Assembly (NCBI GenBank): GCA_003650925.1
Contig: QMSP01000007.1
Coordinates: 18,800 to 82,799 of the forward strand
Direction: 5' to 3'
DNA: 64,000 nt
Source: Thermoprotei archaeon
GTDB lineage: Archaea > Thermoproteota > Thermoprotei > QMSL01
Of the stretch, positions 28,217 through 36,397 are shown one piece after another. Both the position numbers and the translations under genes were made by a program. Each line of letters begins with the position of its first letter. Position 1 is the first letter of the stretch. A model generated the notes under the pieces. The model was not told the origin of the DNA and did not search any database. It worked only from the letters and a program-made list of their open reading frames with translations.

Positions 28217-28705
28217 GTGAGGTATTTGAAGACAATCCTTCAGCCCTTGCTCATAGGTGTGCTCCTCATGGTAATCCTAGCTCTCCTCACGAGCTATGCG
28301 CTTCAAGTACTATCTCCTGTAAGCCTTGAAGTTACTGGCACTTTATTTCCTCTTCAAAGCAATGTAGTGTACATATTCAAGGGTAGGATAAGCCCGGAGA
28401 GCCCTATAGTGGAGGTTAGGGCGAGGCTTATTGAGAGTGGTAGGATATGGTCAGGTGTCAACGTCACTATAGAGAACTTCATACAGGAGGACTTCAAGGG
28501 TACTCTTGAAATCATCATAATGGGAAGGGGTGGAAGGATCATAGCTAATGGGAGCATATGCCTAGAGATAGGCTATGGTGAGAAGAAGCAGTTCATCGTA
28601 CAGCTGAACTGGCTTCCGAATTATACCATGGAGCAGGCTCTGTGGGGACGACTGGTGTTGAAACTGAGATCACGAAGAGGCTTGTTCTTGGCTCCATGGA
28701 GTTAA
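28217..28705 (+). CDS. membrane-anchored extracytoplasmic protein
   Basis: N-terminal hydrophobic segment, beta-rich remainder. Confidence 0.55.
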   Translation: MRYLKTILQPLLIGVLLMVILALLTSYALQVLSPVSLEVTGTLFPLQSNVVYIFKGRISPESPIVEVRARLIESGRIWSGVNVTIENFIQEDFKGTLEIIIMGRGGRIIANGSICLEIGYGEKKQFIVQLNWLPNYTMEQALWGRLVLKLRSRRGLFLAPWS

Positions 28706-28738
28706 GCTTAAGTTTACTGAGTATACCATAGATTAATG

Positions 28739-28800
28739 GCGTGCGCAACACTCCCGCTGGGAGTAGGATGAGCGCACGCGGGACGTATTCACCGCGCACA
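28739..28800 (+). ncRNA. structured GC-rich RNA candidate with 18-nt antisense to conserved archaeal 16S rRNA
   Basis: GCGTGCGC-AAC-ACTCCC-GCT-GGGAGT-AGGATGA-GCGCACGC then GGGACGTATTCACCGCGC (28780-28797). Confidence 0.6.
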
Positions 28801-28817: not shown

Positions 28818-29849
28818 CTAGTATTCCCCTAGGATGTGCTCAGCAGGAGTGAACAGATATCCCTTATTGTGAGCCTCTTCAATTCTCCTAAGAACTTCCT
28901 TGTTCTCTGTGAGAATCATAGCACAACCTCCTTTAACTACTTTAATTCCAGATAATTTCAGAGCTTCTGAGAGTATATGGCTTGAGGAAGGAGCTACTAT
29001 AAGAGGTAGGCCATGGTTCTTTGCCTTATGGATAAGATACAGGATTAGAGAGGCTAGGCTTGACGCCTTCATGTCTTCAGAGAATACGACATCAGATATT
29101 AGGCCAACGTGAAATACCTGCCCTTTAATGTTGTGATAGTCTCTCAGAGATAAAGTTGCTGTACATTGTATTCCTTCCGCTATAGCATGTTTTCTCCTGA
29201 GTCGTTTTTCAGAGAGGCTACTATAGAGAGATAGTGTGGGCCCTAAGTCTGCATAGTTTCTAATAGCATCATCAACAGATATGAGCTTGCCATGCTCCTC
29301 TACTCTAGGCTTAAAGCTTACAAACCTTACAAGGACTCTATCTAGCCAACGAGGTAACAGGCCTAGGAACGCGGTCTTATCAGCTATGAATATGCCAATG
29401 CCGACGTCGAATATATCTTTAAAGCCTCTTCTTCTGTACATGTTCCAAGCTATGCTCCCACGAGCTGTATATAGCATTGTGAAGTCCACCTTCTCCTCCT
29501 CTACCCTCTTCAAGGCTCTATCGAAGACAAGTCTTCCATAGCCCCTTCCCTGATGGTGAGGTAGAACAGCCACATCATCTATGAAGCATGAGCTGAAATG
29601 GTCTCCCTCAACCACTACATCTTTAAATGTAAGAACGGTTGTAGCAACTACTCTGCCTTCAACCTTCAAAAGTGCAACCTCCACTCTTGGCTCTGACCCA
29701 TATCTTTCAAGCCATTCCTCAGGCCTTCTATATAGCGCAATACCAGCCTTACTAGCCCTTATAAAAGCTTCATTAAAGACTACGCATATATCATTGACCT
29801 CGTCTAGGCTAAGCTCTTCAAACCACCTAACTGTGACGACCTCCTGCAC
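28818..29849 (-). CDS. GNAT-family acetyltransferase
   Basis: FIDDVAVLPHHQGRGYGRLVFDRALKRVEEEKVDFTMLYTARGSIAWNMYRRRGF. Confidence 0.82.
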   Translation of the reverse strand: MQEVVTVRWFEELSLDEVNDICVVFNEAFIRASKAGIALYRRPEEWLERYGSEPRVEVALLKVEGRVVATTVLTFKDVVVEGDHFSSCFIDDVAVLPHHQGRGYGRLVFDRALKRVEEEKVDFTMLYTARGSIAWNMYRRRGFKDIFDVGIGIFIADKTAFLGLLPRWLDRVLVRFVSFKPRVEEHGKLISVDDAIRNYADLGPTLSLYSSLSEKRLRRKHAIAEGIQCTATLSLRDYHNIKGQVFHVGLISDVVFSEDMKASSLASLILYLIHKAKNHGLPLIVAPSSSHILSEALKLSGIKVVKGGCAMILTENKEVLRRIEEAHNKGYLFTPAEHILGEY

Positions 29850-36327: not shown

Positions 36328-36397
36328 TGAGCCCCGCGCCTCGCCGACAGGGCCGTATGGCCTTGGAGGAAGCGAGGGTTCCTCGCTCCCCCACAAA
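36328..36397 (+). ncRNA. structured GC-rich intergenic RNA candidate
   Basis: Between convergent guaA and asnS; TATATATCA about 27 nt upstream; CCTCGC/GCGAGG and AGCGAGG-GTT-CCTCGCT hairpins. Confidence 0.45.

Follow-up and report, generated by a model that had tools for sequence, protein, structure and literature searches.

What is the function of a small hairpin that ends in a tail complementary to 16S rRNA? The question is raised by a locus at 28739-28800 (+) of the window, by which we mean the whole 64,000-nt stretch of Thermoprotei DNA analyzed here. The locus lies within a 112-bp gap separating two convergent genes, in a host genome of 2.14 Mb (81 contigs, 98.6% complete), and reads GCGTGCGC-AAC-ACTCCC-GCT-GGGAGT-AGGATGA-GCGCACGC-GGGACGTATTCACCGCGC-ACA. 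The original prediction described an 8-bp stem, an asymmetric 3x7 loop, a 6-bp apical hairpin and an 18-nt tail. Verified against the window, both sequence and coordinates are as described; the dimensions of the loop were right, but its identity as a kink-turn had been missed. The features of the locus are as follows.

28217-28705 (+): ORF of unknown family, flanking the RNA locus
28707-28716 (+): weak AT-rich, TATA-like stretch CTTAAGTTTA, seen by eye upstream of the RNA
28739-28800 (+): putative H/ACA-like sRNA gene, full-length match to covariance model R2
28739-28746 (+): outer (pocket-proximal) stem, 5′ strand GCGTGCGC, 8 bp, pairing with 28772-28779; all 8 columns covary
28747-28749 (+): non-bulged strand of the kink-turn, AAC, from a 17-homologue alignment and a 37-homologue table
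28750-28764 (+): apical hairpin ACTCCC-GCT-GGGAGT, the C-stem of the kink-turn; 5 apical pairs covary
28765-28771 (+): bulged strand of the kink-turn, AGGATGA (GAU bulge, then GA); GGAUGA or a close variant in nearly all homologues
28772-28779 (+): outer stem, 3′ strand GCGCACGC, which sets the guide tail and the kink-turn GA exactly 8 nt apart
28780-28797 (+): 18-nt putative 3′ guide arm GGGACGTATTCACCGCGC, complementary to 16S; predicted target, the U 3′ of the paired GUCCC
28798-28800 (+): ACA trinucleotide, possibly an ANA box displaced to 18 nt from the stem (14-16 in canonical RNAs)
28818-29849 (-): GNAT acetyltransferase gene, flanking the RNA locus

Model R2, whose training set includes the window copy itself, matches this copy over the whole model at 76.5 bits (E 3.9e-21). 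The tail GGGACGTATTCACCGCGC occurs once in the whole genome, and a search of the window that tolerated 3 mismatches likewise found it a single time (0.02 expected). A second stretch of the window, 36339-36377 (+), matches the hairpin part of the model weakly (11 bits, E 0.11) and is probably a chance hit. By eye, CTTATAA-like stretches often stand about 33-45 nt upstream of the stem in homologues.

A conserved, covarying RNA family

Homologous hairpins in sister genomes, which the original prediction had proposed as a check, were found. A DNA search recovered the element in two of three genomes of the same order, adjoining different genes; in these two relatives the outer stem is almost wholly swapped for other complementary bases and the 18-nt tail is identical. 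When 85,488 species genomes were scanned for the pattern ATGA-N(4-16)-tail, 20 matches came up; 17 belong to this RNA and come from Pyrodictium, Pyrodictiaceae, Aeropyrum, Ignisphaera, Acidilobaceae, Desulfurococcaceae and unclassified Thermoprotei. The other three (L017, L019 and L022, in bacteria and one haloarchaeon) were set aside as chance. Covariance-model searches, class-wide and over 401 genomes of the phylum, added further homologues; matches near 29.9 bits were discarded on reading, being the 16S gene's own antisense strand. Overall, about 37 homologues are spread across Thermoproteota in unrelated gene neighborhoods. They are partly kin, and hence not independent samples, and several come from complete genomes; those added by the covariance models include some in single-contig, 99% complete genomes (G288, G273, G364, G193, G283 and others). 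No Rfam family matched the element at gathering thresholds, and the Pyrobaculum genomes searched held no full-length match to it. The element is a widespread RNA family without an Rfam entry. In two homologous loci, a C/D-box-like sRNA (ATGATGA-A.AAGGCCTCTC-.TGATGA) lies about 60-80 nt downstream of the RNA (L003:1603-1634 and L004:1625-1650), possibly forming a small sRNA cluster with it.

The hairpin is maintained by compensatory change. In an alignment of 16 distinct sequences, each of the 13 pairs tested has changed on both sides. Compensatory changes occur in every one of the 8 outer-stem pairs, with the outer helix 93% paired, and 5 apical pairs covary with 73% of cells paired. The alignment holds 57 compensatory cells against 16.5 in shuffles, and its covariation score of 0.773 (0.221 shuffled) was reached by none of 500 shuffles; slid registers scored at most 0.382. 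Folding of the single sequence gave z values of -1.7 and -2.2. By this comparative sequence evidence the locus is an RNA gene, presumably transcribed, and the earlier judgment that the 18-nt match exceeds chance is borne out by both the homologues and the compensatory cells.

Set between the two covarying stems, the 3x7 loop has the form of an L7Ae-type kink-turn, GAC/GGAUGA (most relatives have GAC, the window copy AAC), and binding by L7Ae is predicted from the loop type. The outer stem stands on the non-canonical side of the kink-turn, as in H/ACA RNAs, and in 35 of 37 homologues the distance between the kink-turn GA and the tail is exactly 8 nt. A kink-turn with an 8-bp stem is how the upper stem of an archaeal H/ACA RNA is built. 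Because the 8 bp are joined by two G.A layers, the GA stem counts 10 layers, the GA-stem length in 14 of 15 productive Pyrococcus guides and in solved complexes (PMC4652768). In the H/ACA-like sRNAs of Pyrobaculum the GA stem has 8-13 layers (PMC4652768, PMC7991803).

Two other hallmarks of canonical H/ACA RNAs are not retained. The lower stem is absent: complementarity between leader and tail is not conserved, and the leaders themselves are unconserved among homologues. At the ANA position, 14-16 nt from the stem, the window copy has GCG, with ACA at 19-21, and most of the 37 tabulated homologues have no ANA box at 14-16 nt. The ACA that follows the guide arm shows no conservation across the same 37. 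A canonical box H/ACA sRNA, with a 7-9 bp lower stem and then ACA at 14-16 nt, was therefore ruled out. The ANA box is missing in 14% (PMC4652768) and is often degenerate in the Pyrobaculum H/ACA-like sRNAs (PMC4652768, PMC7991803); it is optional in this loose H/ACA-like class, so its absence is no defining exclusion.

The 16S target and the vanishing 5′ arm

The host's own 16S gene was not found in its 81-contig assembly, and the match of the tail was therefore checked in relatives. The tail had been put forward as an exact 16S complement, and this holds: GCGCGGTGAATACGTCCC, followed by U-G-C, is present in every relative whose 16S region was read, and the next bases are usually (U/C)CC. Seventeen further genomes, almost all MAGs, have no 16S gene in their assemblies, and the comparison of tail to 16S thus rests on complete relatives. 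Seven genomes allowed an intact tail to be compared with the 16S of the same genome; in each, the tail pairs with 14-18 contiguous nt of that 16S, starting from the stem foot, and tail substitutions in G364 and G343 retain pairing as G.U. Five homologues (L037, L038, L039, L060, L114) have four tail bases deleted and still pair on both flanks, so that 16S AUAC or AAUA would bulge out. The 18-bp duplex has a computed energy of -38 kcal/mol at 37 °C and -15.8 at 80 °C; its first 6 nt give -3.4 kcal/mol at 80 °C.

With a 3′ guide that starts at the stem foot, the H/ACA rule predicts that the modified base is the U directly after GUCCC. This candidate target lies at about E. coli position 1384 of 16S (numbering from an alignment by eye), between h43/h28 and the decoding site. 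We know of no pseudouridine reported at this position. In four genomes (G004, G023, G055 and G078; loci L010, L061, L062 and L067) the 16S gene is interrupted right after CCCCTT, a few nt downstream of the target U, likely by an intron near E. coli 1391.

The same rule makes a second prediction. The 5′ arm must pair with the CUCC after U-G, and GGAG is therefore expected at the stem foot. Of the 32 homologues left after deduplication, 7 have GGAG there, and it is the commonest of the 256 4-mers (the next best reaches 3); shuffles averaged 0.32, and none of 20,000 reached 7. We judge that the GGAG-bearing homologues represent at least four lineages. In one homologue (L037) the 5′ arm pairs with 16S at 6 of 6 positions, as against only 1 of 6 in the window copy. 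GGAG is kept in 4 of the 5 homologues with the 4-nt deletion in the 3′ arm and in 3 of the 27 others (Fisher p 0.004, not corrected for kinship); because the bulged and 5′-arm-bearing homologues are partly related by descent, the p-values overstate independence. It is as if the two arms compensate for each other, a bulged 3′ arm going with a retained 5′ arm, and the window copy has probably lost its 5′ arm and come to rely on a single long 3′ arm. The original statement that the upstream arm completes no H/ACA pocket applies to the window copy and fails for these relatives. Since they still carry the pocket arm, and given the kink-turn geometry, the mechanism is much less open than was first supposed.

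We propose, with a probability of roughly three in four, that the locus encodes a single-hairpin, lower-stem-less H/ACA-like guide for pseudouridylation of the 16S U after GUCCC. In this model, L7Ae would bind the kink-turn, and Cbf5 (encoded by the host, with a DKCLD domain at G000:C6:35049-35192), Nop10 and Gar1 would assemble on the 8-bp stem and its two G.A layers. The 3′ tail would pair with 16S GCGCGGUGAAUACGUCCC, placing the next uridine (GUCCC-U-G) in the Cbf5 active site, where it would be converted to pseudouridine. In several lineages the short 5′ arm GGAG would pair with the CUCC after U-G, giving the pocket its classical pair of arms. Where the 5′ arm is gone, as in the window copy and many others, a contiguous 3′ duplex of 14-18 bp would serve instead, the target strand replacing the missing strand of the lower stem. 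The long duplex probably stands in for the lower stem, because the target strand occupies that place; the shortest such duplex, of 14 bp, has as many layers as the 3′ guide and lower stem of canonical guides taken together (14).

Sister hairpins and known relatives

These genomes contain other kink-turn hairpins that the models also detect, L127 and L131-L135 among them. The targets given below were assigned against the 16S and 23S of relatives. The tail of one (L041, in G002) pairs with 23S GGCCGGGAGUAACUC, with one mismatch and one wobble, ending at a U that by our own count would be E. coli U1917 of 23S, which we take to be a universally conserved pseudouridine. The host genome carries a kink-turn hairpin with a related tail (L043, G000:C3:66290-66333), predicted to target the 23S H69 region (U1911/U1917), and another on contig 10 (L042, G000:C10:6242-6307) whose tail ends at UCGGGGUGGGGC-U in the 5′ region of 16S. 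Both L041 and L042 follow the stem-foot-to-U rule of the 16S-tail RNA. Two other hairpins were noted in passing. One (L130, G003:C201:1600-2000) has the tail CTCCCGGCC and the leader GGAGT, and would enclose 23S U1911 in a pocket with two arms. The other, a kink-turn hairpin of the same kind, lies at about 247-400 of L126 (G273:C1:55900-56550), inside an apparent tRNA-gene intron; the anticodon region reads GTA by eye, and ARAGORN calls a tRNA-Pro in the same stretch.

RNAs of this kind are already known. Bernick et al. reportedly described the Pyrobaculum H/ACA-like sRNAs sR203-sR210 in 2012 (RNA 18:402). These sRNAs lack a lower stem (PMC4652768, PMC7991803), and they share with our element the single hairpin, the embedded kink-turn with a GGAUGA-type bulged strand, and a 3′ arm complementary to rRNA. 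The element differs in its tail and target, in a 3′ arm that is longer and invariant (14-18 nt), in having no consistent ANA box, and in its spread over many families. Its 5′ arm is also absent in most copies, whereas descriptions of the Pyrobaculum RNAs give them a single-stranded region at either end. The Pyrobaculum H/ACA-type sRNA PyrR205 (RF02803) shares the layout of the element, with a leader of only 3 nt in the Rfam model; that model matches the hairpin half of the element at 13.3 bits, below its cut-off of 35.6, and a search of Pyrobaculum 23S for the target of PyrR205 itself gave no resolved site. With the canonical archaeal H/ACA sRNAs of Pyrococcus (Pab/Pf), Archaeoglobus and Haloferax, the element shares the L7Ae kink-turn, the 10-layer GA stem, a 3′ guide running from the stem foot with the target U beside its duplex and, in some lineages, a matching 5′ guide. 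It differs from them in lacking a lower stem and a fixed ACA at 14-16 nt, and its 3′ arm is about three times longer. What appears to be new is the family, together with its target and its one-armed design.

Competing explanations and implications

Some features sit uneasily with a modification guide. Canonical 3′ guides are 5-6 nt long, all of them shorter than an 18-bp duplex, which the Cbf5 complex as known might be unable to accommodate, and the window copy has neither a 5′ arm, nor a lower stem, nor an ANA box at 14-16 nt. The long duplex may permit a folding-chaperone role, in addition to modification or as an alternative to it. Taken as an alternative, the RNA would be a non-modifying ribosome-assembly RNA, loosely U3-like, in which an L7Ae-bound hairpin anchors an antisense arm that masks 16S 1366-1383 (h43/h28) while the pre-rRNA folds and comes off afterwards; an association with Cbf5, if there is one, would be ancestral. 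Contiguous pairing over 14-18 nt, at the energies given above, is more than a pseudouridine guide needs, the target strand makes essential neck helices, many homologues are missing the 5′ arm and most the ANA box, and chaperone roles have been proposed for archaeal sRNPs (PMC3608112). Yet a simple antisense has no need of the 10-layer GA stem retained in 35 of 37 homologues, the GGAG 5′ arms of several lineages put a U in the pocket, and the tails of the sister hairpins likewise end beside a U, all of which makes the assembly role an unlikely sole function. The likeness to U3-type pre-rRNA chaperone snoRNAs (an L7Ae/15.5K-type kink-turn RNP with a long antisense to the 18S/16S core) is one of analogy only, U3 being of the C/D class, with a different architecture and target.

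An anti-rRNA regulator of mature ribosomes, with the tail binding the 30S subunit and blocking the decoding-site neck under some condition, would account for a tail that exactly complements a functional 16S segment, and a stable hairpin could protect such an RNA. In the mature 30S, however, the target strand is buried in helices. No stress-linked neighborhood is seen, with contexts varying between genomes, and the fixed H/ACA geometry is left unexplained; we consider this reading highly improbable. Even less can be said for a C/D-box 2′-O-methylation guide. GGAUGA does resemble box C (RUGAUGA), and would act as a C/C′ box within the L7Ae kink-turn, but neither in the window nor in the homologues is the antisense arm followed by a D/D′ box, which upholds the original observation, and the kink-turn faces the wrong way, its closing 8-bp stem being on the non-canonical side as in H/ACA RNAs. 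We rejected it on these two grounds. Least probable of all, to a degree that we treat as negligible, is a remnant of a 16S intron, an rRNA-derived mobile piece or a chance match. The interrupted 16S genes of G004, G023, G055 and G078 lend the intron version some appeal, but the exon to which the element is antisense has no interruption, the locus has neither flanking repeats nor 16S-like sequence beyond the 18 nt, and some 37 covarying homologues sit at unrelated loci; covariation together with a conserved tail refutes all three. The mechanisms first listed for the locus are thereby narrowed, with the noncanonical guide kept and the intron remnant and mobile piece falling away, and the original interpretation is partly supported.

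For the organism, the H/ACA-like guide reading implies that this RNA most likely directs a single chemical edit of 16S rRNA near the decoding site. It makes a specific prediction, a pseudouridine at the 16S U after GUCCC in many Thermoproteota, and would extend lower-stem-less H/ACA RNAs beyond Pyrobaculum. A bolder thought, which we hold tentatively and think rather doubtful, is a widespread class of one-armed archaeal H/ACA RNPs in which the lower-stem strand that is missing comes from the target rRNA, and the contiguous 14-18-bp duplex both positions the uridine and holds h43/h28 open during assembly. If true, such a class would unite modification guide and rRNA-folding chaperone in one RNA, the nearest archaeal counterpart of U3-type RNAs. 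Since nature supplies both two-armed and one-armed versions of this RNA, comparing them would reveal whether Cbf5 can dispense with a 5′ guide if it has a long 3′ duplex. Computational searches have difficulty in detecting archaeal pseudouridine guides, and Rfam has no family for this RNA. Because the same design recurs at other rRNA sites in the same genomes, it may provide a search rule for the missing archaeal guides.
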